NCBI RefSeq assembly: GCF_028198165.1
Contig: NZ_CP116339.1
Span: forward strand, 3,975,001-4,039,000
Reading direction: 5' to 3'
Source of the DNA: Pseudoxanthomonas sp. JBR18
GTDB taxonomy: Bacteria; Pseudomonadota; Gammaproteobacteria; Xanthomonadales; Xanthomonadaceae
DNA length: 64,000 nt
The position numbers and the translations under genes are program-made. The notes beneath the pieces are model-generated. The model saw only the letters and a program-made list of their open reading frames with translations, was not told the origin of the DNA and searched no databases. How positions within the stretch are numbered: the first letter of the stretch is position 1; the number at the start of each line of letters is the position of its first letter. Positions 50,368-59,843 of this stretch are shown here, piece after piece.

Positions 50368-50423
<56 letters not shown>

Positions 50424-50678: not shown

Positions 50679-51977
50679 TCAGCCGCCCAGCCCCTCCCAA
50701 CGCCGCCGCAACACCTCCAACTGCAGATCCGCCGCCGCCCCCGGCGACACCCGCGCCGCCAAACTCCCTTCCGGCGTGCGTCCCTGCCCCGCCGTGTCCG
50801 CACTGGCCGCCGCGGCCTTGTAGGCCTCGCGGAACGGCACGCCGGCCACCGCGGCTTCCACCGCCACGTCGGTCGCATACATGCCCGAATCGATCGCCGC
50901 GTGGATCTTGTCCTGCCGCCACTCCAGATTGGCCAGCAACGCCGGCAGCAGCTCCAGCGCCGCCAGCCCGCGGCCGAAGCCGTGGAAGATCGCGCCCTTG
51001 GAGCCCTGCAGGTCGCGGTGATACCCCGATGGCAGCGACAGCAGCTGCTCGATCTCGGTCTTGGCTGCCGCCACGCTGGCGTGGGTGGCGCGCATCAGCT
51101 CGATCACGTCCGGGTTGCGCTTGTTGGGCATGATCGAGCTGCCGGTGGTGTACTGCGCCGGCAGCGCGACGAAGCCGAACTCGCCACTGGTGAACAACGA
51201 CAGGTCCCAGGCGATGCGGCGCAGGTCCAGCGTGGCGCCGCCGAGGGCCTCCAGCGCGGCCAGCTCGAACTTGCCGCGCGAGAGCTGCGCATAGATCGGC
51301 GAGACCTGCATCCGGGCAAAGCCCAGTTCGGCGGTGGTGTGCTCGCGATCCAGCGGCAGGTTGACGCCGTAGCCTGCGGCGGTCCCCAACGGGTTGGCGT
51401 CCACCAGGCGGAAGGTATCCATCGCGCGCGTGGCGTTGTCGATGAAGGCTTCGGCCCAGCCGGCCCACCACATGCCTGCCGAGGACACCACCGCACGCTG
51501 GATGTGGGTATAGCCGGGAATCGGCATTCCCTTTTCGGCTTCCGCGCGGTCCAGCGCCACCTTGGCCACCTCGCGGCTCAGCCCGGCCACGCGCAGCAGC
51601 TTGTCCTTCAGCCACAGGCGCGTGGCGACCAGGATCTGGTCGTTGCGGCTGCGGCCGGTGTGGATCTTGCGGCCGGCATCGCCCAGGCGCTCGGTCAGGC
51701 GCGCCTCGATGGCCGAATGGCAGTCCTCGTACTGCGCATCGAGCACGAAGGCACCGCTGCGGAAGTCTTCGGCCAGCACATCGAGTTGCTCGCTCAGCTT
51801 GCCCAGCTCGGACAGCGAGAGGATGTCGATGTGCTGCAACCCCTGCGCATGCGCCTTGCTGGCCGCGATGTCGTACAGGAAAAACTCGCGGTCCAGGATG
51901 ACGTCATCGCCGGCCAGGAAGGTCTGGATCTTGGCGTCGACCGCGACGCCGGGTTTCTGCCATAACAAGTCAGCCAT
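50679..51977 (-). CDS. argH: argininosuccinate lyase
   Basis: Last step of arginine synthesis, splitting argininosuccinate to arginine and fumarate. 432 residues; fumarase/aspartase signature [12 protein letters not shown], with HTGRSRNDQ and the TGYTHIQ-like PGYTHIQRA region. The ATG at 51977 has AGGAG eight bases upstream, which settles the start despite a longer open frame. The start of the protein ([10 protein letters not shown]) is typical of this lineage. Confidence 0.96.
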
Positions 51978-52034
51978 GGATGGTTCTCCTGCGAAGACAG
52001 CGTTGAAGCTGTCTTGAATTTGGTCTTTGCATCT

Positions 52035-52171
52035 GTAGAGCGGAGCTTGCTCCGCTGAGGCCTTCCCCGGAACGTCCACGTGGCTGGACCGGGACGGCAG
52101 CGGAGCAAGCTCCGCTCTACAAAACTCGATGCGCGATGGAAGGGACAGCGGCGGAGCGAGCTCCGCTCTAC
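52035..52171. repeat. three GTAG-headed palindromic repeats (SMAG-like REP cluster)
   Basis: GTAG followed by the hairpin AGCGGAGC-TT-GCTCCGCT lies at 52035-52056. The same unit inverted (ending CTAC) is at 52099-52120, and a third, slightly varied inverted unit is at 52150-52171. The GTAG head with a short hairpin matches the SMAG repeats described in Stenotrophomonas maltophilia. They fill the argC-argH gap. Confidence 0.85.
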
Positions 52172-52181
52172 AAAGGGCGGG

Positions 52182-53135
52182 TCAGTGTGGGATCGAGGTC
52201 AGCTCATCCAGGCCCAGGGCCAGGTTGAGGTTCTGCATGGCCTGGGTGGCCGCGCCCTTGAGCAGGTTGTCCAGCGTGGACACCACCACCACGCGCTTGC
52301 CGCCCGGGGCCAGGGTGAAGCCACCGATCTGCACGCCATGGGTGCCGGCGATGCGGCTGACCCACGGCGCATCGTCGATCACCTCCACCAGCGGCTCGTC
52401 GGCATAACGCGCCTCATACAAGGACTTGATCGCCTCGCGCGTCATCGCGTGCTGCAGCCACAGGTTGACGGTCATGGTGATCCCGCGGAAATGCGGCGCC
52501 ACGTGCGGCATGAACTCCACCGGCAGGCCGAGCTGCGCGGACACCTCGCGTTCGTGCATGTGGTTGGTCAGCGAATACGGCATCAGGTTGTCGGCCAGCA
52601 GCTCGGGGTTGTTCTTATCCGACGGCGTGGTCCCGGCACCTGAATAGCCAGAGACGCCGAAACACTGCGGTGGACTGGCCAGTTGATCCAGTAATGGCGC
52701 GATGGCCAGCTGCATGGCCGTGGCATAGCAGCCGGGGTTGCTGATGCGCTTCTGGCCGGCATACCTGTCGCGGGTGAGTTCCGGCAGGCCGTAATACCAG
52801 CTAGGTTCAAAGCGGTAGTCGGCCGACAGGTCGACGATGATCGTGTCCGGCGCGACCGCCTCGAGCGCGACGACGAAGGGCTCGGCCTTGCCGTTGGGCA
52901 GCGCCAGGATCACCGCGTCGGCGCCCTTGGCGGCCACGGCGTCGGCATCGAGATTCTCGAAGCGCAGCGCACCGGCATAGGCGGCGTTGTGTTCGCTGAC
53001 CGGCTGGCCGTCCAGCTCGCGCGAGGACACGAAGGCCAGCTGCAGCTGTGGGTGGGCGACGATCAGCTTGATCAGCTCGCTGCCGGTGTGGCCGCGCGCG
53101 CCGACGATGCCGACGGTGAACGTTTTGGAAGTCAT
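52182..53135 (-). CDS. argC: N-acetyl-gamma-glutamyl-phosphate reductase
   Basis: NADPH-dependent reductase of arginine synthesis. 317 residues: Rossmann motif [16 protein letters not shown] at the N-terminus, and the active-site cysteine in [18 protein letters not shown]. The ATG at 53135 overlaps the stop of the upstream GNAT gene by four bases (ATGA), marking tight operon coupling. Confidence 0.95.
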
Positions 53136-53740
53136 GCGTGCTTGTCCAGCTGGTGTTGCAGATGGGTTTTGATCGCCGGCCATTCGCGGTCGAGGATCGA
53201 GAAGATGACGGTGTCGCGCAGGGAACCATCGGCGTGGCGCTTGTGGTTGCGCAGGACGCCGTCCTGCTTTGCGCCCAGGCGGGCGATCGCCGCGCGCGAG
53301 GCATGGTTGAACCAGCTGGTTTCCAGCACCACCGAGGCCACACCCAGGGTCTCGAACGCGTAGCCCAGCAGCAGCTGCTTGGCCTGCGTGTTCAAGCCGG
53401 TGCGCTGCGCGCGCGGTGCGTACCAGGTGTAGCCGATGCTCAGGCGCGGCACCGCCACATCGATGTCATAGAAGCGCGTGCAGCCGGCCACCACGCCATC
53501 GGCGTCCAGCACCGTGAAGCACAGCATGCGGCCCTGCGCCTGCTCGGCCAGCGCGGCGGCGATGTAGCCGTCGATGGCCTCGGCCCTAGGAACGCCGGTG
53601 TACCACAGGGCCGGCAGCACGCCGTCGGCGACGATCGCGCGCAGGCCGTCGGCATGCGTCGGCGACAGCGGCGCCAGGGTGACGTGGTCGCCACGCAGGG
53701 TCGGCACGCAGGTCCAGGCGGTGGCGTCGGCCTGGGTCAT
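53132..53740 (-). CDS. GNAT N-acetyltransferase (RimJ/RimL type) within the arginine operon
   Basis: A 202-residue acetyltransferase with the RimJ-like pattern [39 protein letters not shown] and the late [17 protein letters not shown]. It is coupled on both sides: one-base overlap (TGATG) with the argB stop and four-base overlap with argC. Its place inside the pathway operon suggests a role connected with acetylated intermediates, but RimJ-type enzymes usually modify proteins, so the substrate is open. Confidence 0.85.
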
Positions 53741-55065
53741 CAACCCACCAGCGTCGGCTGGCGCGTCGCGCAATGGGCCACGCACTGCTTGATCTGGTCG
53801 AAATCCTCCATGCCGTACCAGAACACCTTCCACTTCTCCTGCTTGAAGCAGCCGTCGGACTCGGCGTAGTAGAAGATGTTGATCTGGTTGTTGTGGCGCG
53901 AACGCCAGAACAGCTGCGGCGTCTCCTCGCGCATCACGTTCCAGACCGCACGGCCCAGGCCCTCGCCCTGCGCGTCGTCGGACACGGCGAACTTGTCCAG
54001 GTACACCATGCCGTCGCCATCGGTGAGGATGATGGCGGTGCGGTAGTTCTCGCTGACGTAGGCGCGCAGCAACGCGGTCTTCTCGAAATAGTCCGGCACC
54101 AGCGTGCGGCGGAAGCTGGATTCGATCAGGGTCTTCAGCCGCGGCAGGTCCAGCTCGTCCCAGGAGGTCGCCTTCAGCACGCGCTCGCCACGCCGGACCA
54201 GCGTGCCGGAGCCCTTGTGCGTGAACAGCTCCTTGGCCAGGTCCGCCGGCCGGGTGATCGACACCGACGATTCCAGCGGCAGCTTGTCCAGCAGATCCTT
54301 GATCTGCTCGATCTTGACCTTCATCCCGCCGTGGATCCACGGCTGGGCAATCAGGTGATCGTACTCGGTGGACAGGTTGATCGAGTCGATCACCTTGCCC
54401 TGCTCGTCGAGCAGGCCGCCGGTGCCGGTGAGGAAGATGATCTTGTACGGTTGCAGCTCGCGCACCAGCTCGTTGGCGGCAAAGTCGGCGTTGATGTTGA
54501 GGATCTGGCCGGCCGGGGTTTCGCCCAGGCTGGTGATCACCGGGATCGAGCCGGCCTGCAGGCTGGCTTCGATCGGCGCCAGGTTGACCGCCTTGACCTC
54601 ACCGACCAGCCCGTAGGTGGCCTGGTCCAGGTAGTCGGCTTCGAACACGCCGCCGGTGATCGAGGTGGCACGCGCGCCGGCGGCCTGCAGCGCCTCGACC
54701 AGCTTCAGATTGGAGGACTGGAACACCTTGCGCACGATTGCCAGGCCTTCGGGCGAGGTCACGCGCAGGCCGCCCACGGTCTGCTTCTCGATACCGGCGG
54801 CCGACAATTCCGCATCCAGCTGCGGGCCGGCGCCGTGCAGCACGATCGGGGTCAGGCCGACTTCCTGCAGGAAGGTCAGTGAGGAAGTCAGGTCGTCCAG
54901 CTCGTCGCGCAGCACCGCGCCACCGACCTTCACCACCGCAAAGCGCTTGGCATCGAGCTGCGAGAAGCGCTTGAGGTACTGGCTGATCTCCTTCGCGCTG
55001 GCCATGCTCGAAAGCAGGCGCACGATGGTCTGGCGGGTCTGGGCGTTGGTCACGGGGATATTCAC
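53740..55065 (-). CDS. argB: bifunctional N-acetylglutamate kinase/synthase
   Basis: A 441-residue fusion: an amino-acid-kinase domain ([42 protein letters not shown]) followed from about residue 300 by a GNAT domain that makes N-acetylglutamate. This NAGS/K arrangement is known from Xanthomonas and some other lineages, and resembles vertebrate NAGS; the kinase step also depends on it. A separate argA is not needed. The start is uncertain: GTG at 55065 is chosen to begin just before the conserved [18 protein letters not shown]; other GTG and ATG codons are close. Confidence 0.93.
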
Positions 55066-55131
55066 GATGTGCGGACTGACTCTTTTGAGGTGGCAGGCGG
55101 CCACGAAGGCCGCCGGCGAGATGCGCTGGAA

Positions 55132-56226
55132 TCAGCGCCCATTGATGATGTGGTGGACCGATCCGGCGTAACGCTCCAACTGCTCCAGCGTCACGAACTC
55201 ATCGGCGGTATGCGCCTGGGCGATATCGCCCGGGCCGTAGACCAGCGCGGTGTAACCACCGGCCGAGAACAGCGAGGCCTCGGTCCAGAAATCCACCGCG
55301 TTGCCGATGGGCAGGCCCAGTTCGTCGGCGACATCGCGCGCGGCCAGGCGACGCTCCTCGGCACGGGCGATGTCGCCCGAAGGCAGGCTCGGGCCGCGGA
55401 AGGTTTCCTCGAAATGCGCCGCGGCCGGTTCGGCGAAACCGGCGAAGGTGCTCAGCAGGTCGTCGACGTCCATCGAGGGCAGCGGCCGGAAGCCAAAGCG
55501 CAGCTCGGCCGCTGGCGCGATCATGTTGGCCTTGATGCCACCTTCGACCCGGCCGATGTTGAAGCGCAGGCCGGTCAGCCCGCCAAAACGCGCATGGCTC
55601 AGCGACTCGACATGGTCCAGCGCCTTGCCGCCCCAGCGCATGGCCTGGTGCAGGGCGCTGGCCGATGGATCCTGCTTGCCCGAGGCATGGCCGGCGCGAC
55701 CGGCGAACTTCATCAGCACCGAGCTGATGCCGCGATGCGCCAGCACGGCCTCGCCCATGGTCGGCTCGGCGACCAGAATCGCCTCGTACGGCAGGCCACG
55801 GGCCAGGAACGCGGCGATGCAACGCGGGTCATTGGCTTCCTCGTCGGAAGAGAACAGGAAGGCCGCATCGCCATCGCCGGCATTGGCCGCGGCGATCAGC
55901 GCGGCCGCCGCGCCCTTGATGTCGCACACACCCAGGCCGACCACGCGATCGGCCTGGCGGCGCATCACGTGCGGATCGGCGCTCCAGTGCGGCGAATCCG
56001 GCACGGTATCCAGGTGCACGTTGAACAGGTATCTGGGCGCGCCGCGCACGGCGTAGAAGCTGATCGCGCCGGCGCCGTGGTCGATCACCTCGACCTGGAA
56101 GCCCGGCAACTGCGCACGCAGGTAATCGAAGATGCCGCCAGTGGTCAGCGCACGCGGCGGGTTGCGGGTGTCGAAGGACACCAGCTTCTCCAGATGCGTC
56201 AGCGTGGTTTCGAGCAGATGGGTCAT
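55132..56226 (-). CDS. argE: N-acetylcitrulline deacetylase (ArgE-like, M20 family)
   Basis: A 364-residue zinc hydrolase of the M20 family: H71-x-D73 (FNVHLDTVPD), D102 (VCDIKGA), and the general-base pair E129/E130 (SSDEEAND). By sequence alone it could act on acetylornithine, but the linked carbamoyltransferase uses acetylornithine, so the substrate should be acetylcitrulline, as shown for the Xanthomonas enzyme. It lies 66 bases upstream of argB. Confidence 0.92.
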   Translation of the reverse strand: MTHLLETTLTHLEKLVSFDTRNPPRALTTGGIFDYLRAQLPGFQVEVIDHGAGAISFYAVRGAPRYLFNVHLDTVPDSPHWSADPHVMRRQADRVVGLGVCDIKGAAAALIAAANAGDGDAAFLFSSDEEANDPRCIAAFLARGLPYEAILVAEPTMGEAVLAHRGISSVLMKFAGRAGHASGKQDPSASALHQAMRWGGKALDHVESLSHARFGGLTGLRFNIGRVEGGIKANMIAPAAELRFGFRPLPSMDVDDLLSTFAGFAEPAAAHFEETFRGPSLPSGDIARAEERRLAARDVADELGLPIGNAVDFWTEASLFSAGGYTALVYGPGDIAQAHTADEFVTLEQLERYAGSVHHIINGR

Positions 56227-56245
56227 GTCAGTCGGTCTATCGGGT

Positions 56246-56689
56246 TCAGGCGGCGGAAGCGGCGGCGCGGCTGTAGAGCTCCATGTCGAGCTTCTCCATC
56301 AACCGGTCCGGACGCGCGGGTGGCACGAAGCCGAACTGCGCATACAGGCCATGCGCATCGAAGGTGGCCAGCATGAAGCGACGCAGGCCCTGCAGCTGCG
56401 GATGCGCCACGATGGCCTGCATCAGCTGCTTGCTGTAGCCATGGCCGCGCTGGCTTTCCAGCACGAACACGTCGGCCAGATAGGCGAACGTCGCACCATC
56501 GGTGATGACCCGCGCGAACGCCACCTGCCCCACCTCTTCGAGATAACCACCGAAGCACAGCGACCCGTCGATGGCGCGCTGCACCGTCTGACGCGGGATG
56601 CCGCGCGACCAGTAGGCCTGGACCAGGAAACCGTGGATCACGTCCAGGTCCAGGCGGGTCTTGTCGGTGGAGATGTCGAGTGTGGTCAT
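56246..56689 (-). CDS. GNAT N-acetyltransferase
   Basis: A 147-residue acetyltransferase with acetyl-CoA motif LADVFVLESQRGHGYSKQLM and the ending GLYAQFGFVPPARPDRLMEK. This subfamily (similar to PhnO/YjcF-like small GNATs) is common but of unknown substrate. It lies 19 bases upstream of argE in the arginine cluster, and is the third acetyltransferase domain in this run. Confidence 0.85.
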   Translation of the reverse strand: MTTLDISTDKTRLDLDVIHGFLVQAYWSRGIPRQTVQRAIDGSLCFGGYLEEVGQVAFARVITDGATFAYLADVFVLESQRGHGYSKQLMQAIVAHPQLQGLRRFMLATFDAHGLYAQFGFVPPARPDRLMEKLDMELYSRAAASAA

Positions 56690-56758
56690 GTCTTCGCTTT
56701 AAACATCATTCGTCGCTTCCGCGGCGTTCAACAGACGGATGTCTGGTCAGGCGGGAGC

Positions 56759-56792
56759 CCAGTGACTTGCAAGTGATCAGGCAAGCCACTGG
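56759..56792. repeat. imperfect inverted repeat after argG
   Basis: CCAGTGACTTGC (56759-56770) pairs with GCAAGCCACTGG (56781-56792) at 11 of 12 positions. It lies 32 bases past the argG stop. Without a T-run it is a weak terminator at best. Confidence 0.45.
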
Positions 56793-56823
56793 ATCCCCTC
56801 CTGCGCGGGAATGACGGGCCCGA

Positions 56824-58023
56824 TCAACCTTCGCCGTTGACCTGCGCGTACAGCGTGGAGCTCATGCCGAACAGCTTGATGAAGCCTTCGGCCTCTTCCA
56901 CGCCCCAGTCGGCCGACTGCGCGTAGGTCGCGCCCTTGGCGTTGAGGATGTGCGGCGACTTAACCGCCACGGCCTCGACGCGGCCGCCGTCGGTACGCAA
57001 CACCACCTCGCCGTTGACCTTGCCCTGCGAGGACTTCAGAAAGGCCTCGATGTCGGTCTTGAGCGGGTCGTGGTAGAAGCCCTCGTACACCAGCTCGACC
57101 CACTTGCGCGCCACTTCGGGCTTGAAGCGATTCTGCTGCTTGGTCAGCACCGCATCCTCCAGCGCGCGGTGCGCGGCCAGCAGCGACACCAGGCCCGGCG
57201 CCTCGAACACGATGCGGCCCTTCAGGCCGATCACGGTGTCGCCGGTGTACACGCCACGGCCCACGCCGTAGGGGGCGAAGAGCTTGTTGAGCTTGGCCAG
57301 AATCTTCTCGCCGGCCAGCTTTTCGCCATCCAGCGCCACGGCCTCGCCGTTGACGAAGCTCAGGGTCACCGACAGCGGCGCTTGCGGCCACTCGGCGCGC
57401 GGCGCGCACCAGCCGCGTGCGCCCTCGCCCGGGGCTTCCCAGCGATCGATCTCCCCGCCGGACATGGTCAGGCCCAGCAGGTTCTCGTTGATGGTGTAGG
57501 CCTGCTGCTTGGCGCGCACGCCGAAGCCGCGTGCTTCCAGGTACTGCTGCTCGTAGGCGCGGGTCTGGGTGTGCTCTTTCTGGATCTCGCGGATCGGCGC
57601 GACGATCTCGTAGTCGCCCAACGCCTTGACCGCCAGGTCGAAACGCACCTGGTCGTTACCCATGCCGGTGCAGCCATGCGCGATGGCCTTGGTGCCCAGC
57701 TCGGCGGCGCGCTTGAGCGCGGCATCGACGATCAGGTAACGGTCGGAGACCAGCAGCGGGTATTGACCCTGATAGCCCTCGCCGGCCCACACGAAGGGCT
57801 TGACGAAGCCGTTCCAGATCGCAGGGCCGCCATCGACGGTCTGGTGGCTGGCCACACCCAGTTCGGCGGCGCGCTGCTCGATGAAGGCGCGCTCGGCATC
57901 GTCCACGCCGCCGGTGTCGGCGAACACGGTGTGCACCGCGTAGCCCTTTTCCTGCAGGTAGGGAACGCAGAAGCTGGTGTCCAGGCCGCCGGAAAAGGCC
58001 AGCACGATGTCTTTCTTGCTCAT
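56824..58023 (-). CDS. argG: argininosuccinate synthase
   Basis: Joins citrulline and aspartate using ATP. 399 residues: P-loop-like pyrophosphatase motif [11 protein letters not shown] at the N-terminus, [15 protein letters not shown], and [14 protein letters not shown] in the middle. Normal length for bacterial ArgG. It follows the carbamoyltransferase by 26 bases. Confidence 0.96.
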
Positions 58024-58049: not shown

Positions 58050-59060
58050 TTACTGGGAAATCAGGGCGGCCATGATCGCCTTCTGCACGTGCAGACGGTT
58101 CTCGGCCTCATTGATGGCGATGCACTGTGGCGAATCCATGACCGCGTCGGTCGCCTTGACGTTGCGACGCAGCGGCAGGCAGTGGCTGAACACGCCGTTG
58201 TTGGTCAGGGCCATCTTGGCCTCGTCCACGATGAAGTGCTTGTACTGGTCGCGAATAGGCTTCTCCGGGCCCCAGTTGCCGAAGTACGGCAGCGCGCCCC
58301 AGCTCTTGGCGTAGACCACATCGGCACCGGCGTAGGCGCTGTCGATGTCGTGGCTGACCTTGAGCGAGCCGCCGCTTTCGGCCACGTTGTCCTGCGCCCA
58401 ACCCATGTAGCGCTCGTCGAGGACGTACTCGGGCGTCGGGCACAGCAGGGTCACGTCCATGCCCATGCGCGTGGCGATGGTCAGGGCCGAATTGGCCACC
58501 GCGGTGTTGAGCGGCTTGGGGTGGTAGGTCCAGGTCAGCACGTACTTCTTGCCGCGCAGGTCGGAGGTGCCGAAGTATTCCTGCAGCGCCATCACGTGGG
58601 CCAGCTCCTGGCACGGATGGGTGATGGTCTCCATGTTGATGACCGGCACCGGGCAATACTTGGCGAAGCTCTTGAGCACGCGGTCCTGGCGGTCGATTTG
58701 CCAGTCCACGAACTTCGGAAACGCGCGCACCGCGACGATGTCCGCATAGCGTCCCAGCACCTGGGCCACTTCGGCGATGTGCTCCTCGGCCTCGCCATCC
58801 ATCACCGTGCCCAGGTCGAACTCGATCGGCCACGCATCCTTGCCCGGCTGCAGCACCACCGCGTGGCCGCCCAGCTGGAAGGTGCCCAGCTCGAAGCTGG
58901 TGCGCGTGCGCATGGACGGGTTGAAGAACACCAGGGCCACCGACTTGCCCTTGAGCTCGCTGCCCAGCTTGTTGCGTTTGAACAGCGCGGCCTGGGTCAA
59001 CAGGGCGTCCAGGTCCGGACGGCTCCAGTCCTGGGTGTTCAAGAAGTGCTTCAAGGGCAT
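58050..59060 (-). CDS. argF': N-acetylornithine carbamoyltransferase
   Basis: Transfers carbamoyl to N-acetylornithine to make N-acetylcitrulline, the variant step that defines the acetylated arginine route. 336 residues. The carbamoyl-phosphate loop [11 protein letters not shown] and [12 protein letters not shown] are visible, along with [13 protein letters not shown]. Three residues reported as diagnostic for the Xanthomonas enzyme are present at the same numbers: W77, E92 and K302, the last known to be carboxylated. The ATG at 59060 has AAGG eight bases upstream. Upstream is a leader with a terminator and short peptide; see the attenuator entry. Confidence 0.96.
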
Positions 59061-59135
59061 CGGGTCATCCTTTGCGAGATTGGGCGCGCCGGCCGGCGCG
59101 GTTGCGATTGAAACTTTCCAGTGACGCGAAAACGA

Positions 59136-59199
59136 AAAAACCCAGCCTGATGGCTGGGTTTTTCCGGTGTGCAGGCGAAGACCTCCGGTGACCCAGCTA
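59136..59199 (-). promoter_or_regulatory. candidate transcription attenuator of argF'
   Basis: On the minus strand an intrinsic terminator, stem CCCAGCC/GGCTGGG (59152-59158 with 59141-59147, loop ATCA) extended by A/T pairs, ends in six T residues. It lies 75 bases before the argF' start. An upstream segment GCTGGGT (in 59191-59197) is complementary to ACCCAGC of the terminator's first arm, so the two hairpins cannot coexist. That segment begins at the stop codon of a short leader frame. These are the parts of a ribosome-mediated attenuator. The hairpin could instead just terminate the gene upstream. Confidence 0.55.
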
Positions 59200-59286
59200 G
59201 GAGCAGGATTCCGGTCGGCGAGCACGCGAGGTCATGCCCGAGGCCATCCGGGCGGCGCTTGCGTACAGGTGCGAAGAGATCTTCAT
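59197..59286 (-). CDS. putative arginine leader peptide, 29 residues
   Basis: A short frame from ATG (59286) to TAG (59197-59199), reading MKISSHLYASAARMASGMTS then RARRPESCS. Four of 29 residues are Arg; the RARR cluster is placed 6 to 9 codons before the stop, just ahead of the anti-terminator segment. An AGGA lies ten bases before the ATG. Arginine starvation would stall a ribosome on this cluster. That is inference from layout; no published leader of this kind is known to me. Confidence 0.45.
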   Translation of the reverse strand: MKISSHLYASAARMASGMTSRARRPESCS

Positions 59287-59345
59287 GGGGCGCGCATCCT
59301 CGCACGCCGCCGTGCTGCGGCGCAAGGCCGAGTGCGACAGATCCC

Positions 59346-59843
59346 TCACTGGCCCGCGTAGGGCATCACCGAGACGCGGATGCGCAGGCGATTGCCGGGA
59401 TCCTCGGCCATGCGGTTGCGGTACTTGGTGCCCTTGTAGACGTAGTCCACGTCGTAGGCGATGGGTCGGCGGAACTCGCGCTCGACCGTGACCATGTGGC
59501 AGTTCTGGTCCGCTGAAGACGTTGACCTGGATTTGGCATCCGAGGGCTTGCCATCGGCTGGCTGGCTGTCGTCCCCGGTAAAGATGCCCTTGACCGAATC
59601 GACCATCCGCGCGATGCGCCCTTCTTCCTTTGGCGCCTCTTCGTCCTCCTGCCTGGCCGGCGAATCGCACTGCTGCTCGGTGCGGCTGGCCCGCAGCGTC
59701 TGGTAGACCGGCTCGACGGAGAGCACCTGCGCGTAGTCGATCCTCACGTTCTCCACCGGAACCACCGTGGTCTGCTGCGCGGACGCTGGGACGACGCAGG
59801 CACAAAGACTGACGGCAAGCAGGACGCGGAAGGCTGGAGGCAT
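59346..59843 (-). CDS. secreted protein of unknown function, C-terminal beta domain
   Basis: A 165-residue exported protein: signal peptide FRVLLAVSLCACVVPASAQ, a charged, low-complexity middle (residues 60-112) with two cysteines flanking it (C59, C115), and a conserved-looking C-terminal part. That part contains VTVEREFRRPIAYDVDYVYK and NRLRIRVSVMP. The YDVDYVYKGTKY pattern recalls the C-terminal beta module found beside glycine-zipper envelope proteins. Function unknown. A cysteine before the AxA site is not in a lipobox. Confidence 0.7.
   Translation of the reverse strand: MPPAFRVLLAVSLCACVVPASAQQTTVVPVENVRIDYAQVLSVEPVYQTLRASRTEQQCDSPARQEDEEAPKEEGRIARMVDSVKGIFTGDDSQPADGKPSDAKSRSTSSADQNCHMVTVEREFRRPIAYDVDYVYKGTKYRNRMAEDPGNRLRIRVSVMPYAGQ

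Follow-up and report, generated by a model that had tools for sequence, protein, structure and literature searches.

Does the leader of argF', the gene for N-acetylornithine carbamoyltransferase in Pseudoxanthomonas sp. JBR18, act as a transcription attenuator that responds to arginine? The question arises from a 64,000-nucleotide (nt) stretch of contig NZ_CP116339.1 (positions 3,975,001 to 4,039,000; the window), for which a preliminary description had proposed such a device on the minus strand ahead of this gene. With a probability of roughly 87%, we read the element as a ribosome-mediated transcription attenuator in which the Arg codons of a leader peptide serve to sense arginine, and which controls argF' and probably the arg genes following it. 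Conservation of the leader, covariation of the competing pairings and Arg-rich leaders in distant families support this attenuator logic.

The argF' leader combines Arg codons with two predicted competing RNA structures

The element consists of a short reading frame, an intrinsic terminator and segments predicted to pair in alternative ways. All coordinates are window positions.

59197..59286, minus strand: leader reading frame of 29 codons plus stop, MKISSHLYASAARMASGMTSRARRPESCS, with its ATG at 59286 (from sequence)
59199-59197, minus strand: leader stop TAG (from sequence)
59215..59226, minus strand: Arg-Ala-Arg-Arg codons CGT GCT CGC CGA (from sequence and codon conservation)
59217-59215, minus strand: CGA, the proposed stall codon (from codon conservation)
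59206..59214, minus strand: region 1, CCGGAATCC, pairing partner of region 2 (1:2 fold -12.5 kcal/mol; weak in the shuffle test)
59185..59197, minus strand: region 2, GCTGGGTCACCGG, overlapping the leader stop (from sequence, fold and pairing tests)
59197-59191, minus strand: GCTGGGT within region 2, its first letter being the G of the TAG stop (from sequence)
59164..59169, minus strand: CACCGG, which lengthens the 2:3 antiterminator (2:3 fold -20.2 kcal/mol)
59152..59159, minus strand: region 3, the terminator 5' arm, ACCCAGCC (from fold and pairing tests)
59135..59147, minus strand: region 4, the terminator 3' arm, GGCTGGGT (59147-59140), and a T-tract (59140-59135) (fold -23.7 kcal/mol)

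The proposed 29-codon frame with Arg-Ala-Arg-Arg near its end is present at 59286-59197, as are the GCTGGGT segment at the stop codon and an intrinsic terminator able to pair with it. When the window sequence is folded, the terminator has a predicted energy of -23.7 kcal/mol versus -20.2 kcal/mol for the competing 2:3 structure, and the 1:2 hairpin one of -12.5 kcal/mol.

In the proposed mechanism, the leader ATG would lie about 2 nt downstream of the transcription start. When arginine is plentiful, a ribosome would read past the Arg codons to the stop and cover region 2 with its GCTGGGT; regions 3 and 4 would then form the terminator, and the leader so released would correspond to the catalogued Xoo5 RNA. 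When arginine is short, the ribosome would stall at the last Arg codon, CGA, and cover what lies just beyond it. With this codon in the A site, about the next dozen nucleotides would be covered and region 2 left free. Region 2 would then pair with region 3 and transcription would continue into argF'. The frame, its Arg codons, the terminator, the alternative pairing and the conservation of each are read directly from the DNA, and a homologous RNA with a mapped 5' end exists in Xanthomonas oryzae (PMC3039613, available text).

The leader is conserved ahead of argF' in near relatives

Near loci were selected by argF' only and number 141: 80 contigs (the best 80 of 580 confirmed argF' matches), 60 genomes chosen by place (40 from the same family, Xanthomonadaceae, and 20 from a second family, f12) and the window itself. 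All 141 carry the TSRARR pattern upstream of argF', with an in-frame start 60-69 nt before its first Arg codon and an intrinsic terminator between leader and argF'. The leader frame, whose loss in close relatives had been named as grounds for abandoning the proposal, is thus kept throughout, and because the same layout precedes argF' in every locus picked by this gene alone, the arrangement is not due to chance. Contig L092 bears the label Bacillus subtilis SK7B5; its argF' shares 89% identity with the query and its leader is Stenotrophomonas-like, so the contig is probably contaminated or wrongly labelled.

Conservation is concentrated in the peptide. Among 121 unique segments, including nine that a profile selected from families f2 and f3, a single Ile is the one exception to a constant MTSRARR. 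Its entropy at codon positions 1, 2 and 3 is 0, 0 and 0.669 bits; the corresponding values for the leader tail are 1.55, 1.40 and 1.37 bits. Third positions vary while the MTSRARR residues stay fixed, so selection acts at the protein level. In 108/109 unique segments (counted without L040 and L042), CGA is the last Arg codon. CGA is poorly read by a tRNA shared with CGU and CGC in a Salmonella his-leader assay (PMC4046918, available text). No Pfam family was found for four leader peptides at E values up to 10, and no NCBIfam family for the window peptide.

Pairing between regions 2 and 3 covaries

The preliminary description had called for a search for covariation in the competing stems, and the variable pair between regions 2 and 3 does covary. 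In 122 stop-anchored leaders (of 150) it is T-A in 90, C-G in 21, T.G in 5, C.A in 5 and G.G in 1 (Fisher p 2e-14; 4e-6 in 55 representatives under 75% identity). With the terminator 5' arm as target, the duplexes of 98/122 unique near leaders rank in the best 5 of 100 shuffles, and 32 of the 52 distant leaders introduced below rank in the best 3 of 60. A pause hairpin at codons -11 to -3 was rejected as weak (mean z -0.84; 15/73 at rank 3 or better of 60 synonymous shuffles).

Leaders of distant families share arginine richness

A leader-peptide profile matched 10/43 genomes of families f2-f11, and nine of the ten matches adjoin argF'; genome G298 also carries MTSRARR. The G323 match was rejected as a leader, lying on a different contig from argF', where no leader is present. 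A class-wide search identified true leaders in 5/369 genomes, all of this order, with a profile that sought the GMTSRARR form only, other Arg-rich peptides outside the order not being searched for. A second match in the window's own genome (2141576), another second match in G071 and those in three genomes from other orders were judged on inspection to be chance hits, most of them lying within other frames or antisense to them.

The sequence preceding argF' was also compared in 60 genomes, mostly of families f4-f10. An intrinsic terminator is present in 52 of these loci, which were usable, while eight have no strong one or are cut by a contig end. Ahead of the terminator, a frame reaching 4 or more Arg within 10 codons occurs in 40/52 loci versus 7.1 expected, and one reaching 5 or more in 30/52 versus 1.7 expected (60 dinucleotide shuffles per locus). 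The distant leader peptides, for example NPRRRRVSQSTAG, LRRRRRSSQRRAG and VVVRRRRPLRQMELFG, have little in common except arginine. Being Arg-rich and otherwise unrelated, they single out the arginine codons as the shared feature.

The pairing partners also differ among these families. When the target is widened from the 5' arm to the hairpin by adding the loop and 4 nt of the 3' arm, 41/52 distant leaders reach the upper ranks, a rise that is due to five f8 genomes (G346, G376, G372, G368 and G364). In these, the partner of the stop region is the terminator loop and 3' arm rather than the 5' arm (e.g. GCTCTTTGG with CCAAAGAGC; ranks 0-1 of 100). G321, G388 and G420, with CCAGGTT opposite AACCTGG, represent a separate pairing solution. 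The f8 pairings thus differ, and the predicted switch logic is the same.

The distant loci also bear on the simplest alternative, namely that the hairpin only terminates the gene upstream of the leader:

59346-59843, minus strand: small protein gene (below-cut-off likeness to NF008437 and UmoD models)

This gene runs in the same direction as argF', and its homologue adjoins argF' in 119/121 Xanthomonadaceae and 15/20 f12 loci, as such a terminator would predict. In the 60 distant loci (450 nt searched) the homologue occurs once, in G300, itself without a leader, yet 52 loci have a terminator and 40 an Arg-rich frame. The hairpin is therefore not just the terminator of that gene. In addition, the X. 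oryzae RNA starts between the gene and the hairpin (PMC3039613, available text), and we regard this explanation as highly improbable.

A frozen peptide core and a possible role of the nascent chain

A second alternative retains the same RNA switch and gives the peptide a part of its own. The conserved AxxA(S/A)GMTSRARR would act in the ribosome exit tunnel, either halting the ribosome at RARR when a metabolite (arginine, ornithine or acetylornithine) is sensed or sharpening its response to tRNA charging. Across the 121 unique segments, A(-9), A(-6), T, S and A(1) never change and G(-4) and M(-3) hardly do, third codon positions vary, and conservation stops right after RARR(P), so that protein-level conservation adjoins the stall site. 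Codon sensing alone does not require frozen non-Arg residues, and in the speF orf34 leader, too, the conserved core contains an Arg pair (PMC6386406, available text). The frozen core hints at a role for the nascent chain. On the other side, distant families carry unrelated peptides whose common trait is Arg richness, so that a specific peptide is not needed for the basic device, and an RNA-level constraint may act on part of the core, Ala -9 being GCC in 104/109 segments. We consider a regulatory nascent peptide possible, at well under even odds.

A tentative history, to which we give similarly low credence, would join these observations. The device may have begun as a plain Arg-codon attenuator and become a regulatory nascent peptide in the AxxA(S/A)GMTSRARR families, where, on a probably leaderless mRNA, the peptide would leave the ribosome at CGA unusually sensitive to how much arginine is available, or let it respond to an arginine-pathway metabolite.

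The leader corresponds to the Xoo5 RNA

An Rfam scan of the window identified RF02242, 'Xoo5 sRNA' (small RNA), at 59288-59169 with 76.5 bits versus a gathering score of 50. With an E value of 0.01 or better, the model matched 254/297 genomes sampled from the same family, exceeding the gathering score in 142/297, and 0/14 controls. No Rfam match was found in 12 divergent loci; Xoo5 as modelled therefore covers near relatives only. Its founder was cloned from X. oryzae PXO99, mapped by 5' rapid amplification of cDNA ends (5' RACE) and given as 124 nt; Northern bands of about 130 and about 100 nt were reported, with two transcripts in early growth and later the short one alone (PMC3039613, available text). 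It lies between PXO_00354 and PXO_00353, the latter tabulated as N-acetylornithine carbamoyltransferase, and the words 'arginine', 'argF' and 'leader' do not occur in the available text of that paper.

Three further features lie upstream of the leader frame.

59320..59325, minus strand: promoter -35-like TTGCGC (from sequence)
59296..59301, minus strand: promoter -10-like GAGGAT, containing AGGA (59300-59297), 18 nt from TTGCGC
59288, minus strand: transcription start by homology (RF02242 position 1; 5' RACE of the Xoo5 founder), as we infer for this genome

RF02242 position 1 was taken as the transcript start because the lengths of the model and of the mapped RNA agree at 124. In the window, and in the Xoo5 matches inspected, this position lies 2 nt ahead of the leader ATG. 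With that start and promoter-like sequences just upstream, the leader mRNA is probably leaderless in Xanthomonadaceae. The AGGA motif, earlier described as resembling a ribosome-binding site, is present; because it sits within GAGGAT, 18 nt from TTGCGC, and ahead of the 5' end mapped for the homologous RNA, it more likely belongs to a promoter -10 box. By loose patterns, for which no control was run, TTGC occurs in the 50 nt before the leader start in 120/121 Xanthomonadaceae loci, and a NANN[AC]T hexamer ending 7-10 nt before the ATG in 108/121. In f12, promoter-like sequences appear by eye to sit further upstream.

A transcript start for argF' downstream of 59136 would have spoken against the preliminary description; the sole mapped start, that of X. 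oryzae Xoo5, lies upstream of the leader. A second start may exist between 59135 and 59060. A AAAGTTTCA-like motif is found at 59119-59100 (minus strand), between terminator and argF'; a loose pattern for it, G[TC]T[TG]CA, matches 71/121 Xanthomonadaceae and 3/20 f12 loci (no control). It is conceivable that this motif is a second promoter or processing site.

Xoo5 is thus the same RNA as the window leader, filed in Rfam as an sRNA of unknown function, unlike the attenuator reading given here. That it acts in trans and its gene merely happens to precede argF' would fit its description and filing as an sRNA (Rfam type) and its Northern bands (PMC3039613, available text). Its reading frame is conserved with synonymous variation, however, it covaries with the terminator, and it was always beside argF' in the near loci examined, as were nine of the ten profile matches in f2-f11. 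We judge this explanation unlikely, less remote than that of an upstream-gene terminator; Xoo5 may have an additional role in trans. The RNA catalogued as Xoo5 sRNA appears, from its sequence and position, to be the terminated, switched-off product of the attenuator.

Several observations weigh against an attenuator

Leader translation, stalling and the arginine response are what we infer from these features, which counts against the attenuator, as do the following points. The Fisher tests on the variable 2/3 pair ignore common ancestry, and many of the C-G cases are from f12. The pair is a C.A mismatch in 5/122 leaders, and 6/122 near duplexes with the 5' arm rank worse than 20 of 100. With the hairpin as target, just 29/122 near leaders are in the best 5 of 100 shuffles, probably because a longer target rich in GC finds partners in many shuffles. 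The 1:2 hairpin, which in an attenuator of this kind would free the terminator while the leader goes untranslated, scores poorly (mean z -0.80; 20/109 at rank 3 or better of 60). The terminated RNA is predicted to be 148-187 nt long (median 158; 121 loci), and the published bands of about 130 and 100 nt and the 124-nt clone are shorter, for which RNA processing is a possible explanation. Finally, no such leader was found in 9/19 f9 genomes, all of genus g62 (e.g. G304, G421 and G401). G347 and G329, of the same genus, do show a leader with a terminator before argF'.

The leader precedes a cluster of arginine genes

Downstream of the leader, the window contains a run of arginine-biosynthesis genes.

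58050..59060, minus strand: argF', N-acetylornithine carbamoyltransferase (NF003384, 631 bits, cut-off 288)
50679..58023, minus strand: argG, a small protein, acetylornithine deacetylase, argB, argC and argH (NCBIfam above cut-off for all but the small protein)

The small protein of this run has below-cut-off likeness to N-acetyltransferases in NCBIfam. The genes from argG to argH are presumed to be co-transcribed with argF'. A search for ArgR (PF02863) gave hits in 0/99 genomes of the family and 0/20 across the order, with 8/14 controls positive, a result that favours the attenuator. A perfect hexamer repeat, CTGTTG in 9.2 copies, lies just downstream of argH (50369-50423).

Comparison with known attenuators and significance

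The proteobacterial his, trp, leu, thr and phe attenuators likewise have a leader peptide rich in codons for the end product, a region 2 with alternative partners upstream and in the terminator (the upstream pairing, 1:2, being weak in the present leaders), and an intrinsic terminator ahead of the first gene. The present system differs in that arginine would be sensed, the mRNA is probably leaderless in Xanthomonadaceae and the peptide core is frozen within four families. The fungal arginine attenuator peptide is also a conserved upstream peptide of an arginine gene; it is eukaryotic, stalls at its own stop codon when arginine is present and acts on translation.

The available text of PMC1262725 lists his, thr and phe attenuators and, for arginine, T-boxes; arginine attenuators are absent from its list. 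The nearest system in the literature searched is the Salmonella speF leader orf34, whose conserved peptide also has adjacent Arg codons and in which low arginine stalls the ribosome and favours expression, as proposed here. It differs in controlling ornithine decarboxylase through Rho, RNase G and folding of the ribosome-binding site, with no intrinsic terminator (PMC6386406, available text). The speF leader peptide family, PF10940, was not matched by the four leader peptides in the Pfam search. 'Leader peptide' and 'argF' do not occur in the available text of PMC5559785, and the odc1 motif of PMC8632094, in whose available text 'Xanthomonas' does not occur, was set aside as unrelated. No arginine attenuation of a bacterial arginine-biosynthesis operon was found in the literature searched, subscription papers being mostly outside its coverage. 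The RNA itself was already known, as Xoo5 sRNA. Beyond the preliminary description, the sequences indicate that the RNA is this known 'sRNA' and that the peptide is conserved beyond the needs of codon sensing.

If the attenuator reading is true, classical attenuation of a biosynthetic operon by its own amino acid would extend to arginine, and an Rfam 'sRNA' family would be reassigned as attenuator output. The progression from Arg runs to a frozen peptide would offer a natural series for testing the origin of nascent-peptide regulation and, if the peptide does act in the ribosome, an evolutionary bridge from codon-sensing attenuation to metabolite-sensing arrest peptides. For this order, in whose sampled genomes no ArgR was found, the leader would supply control by arginine.
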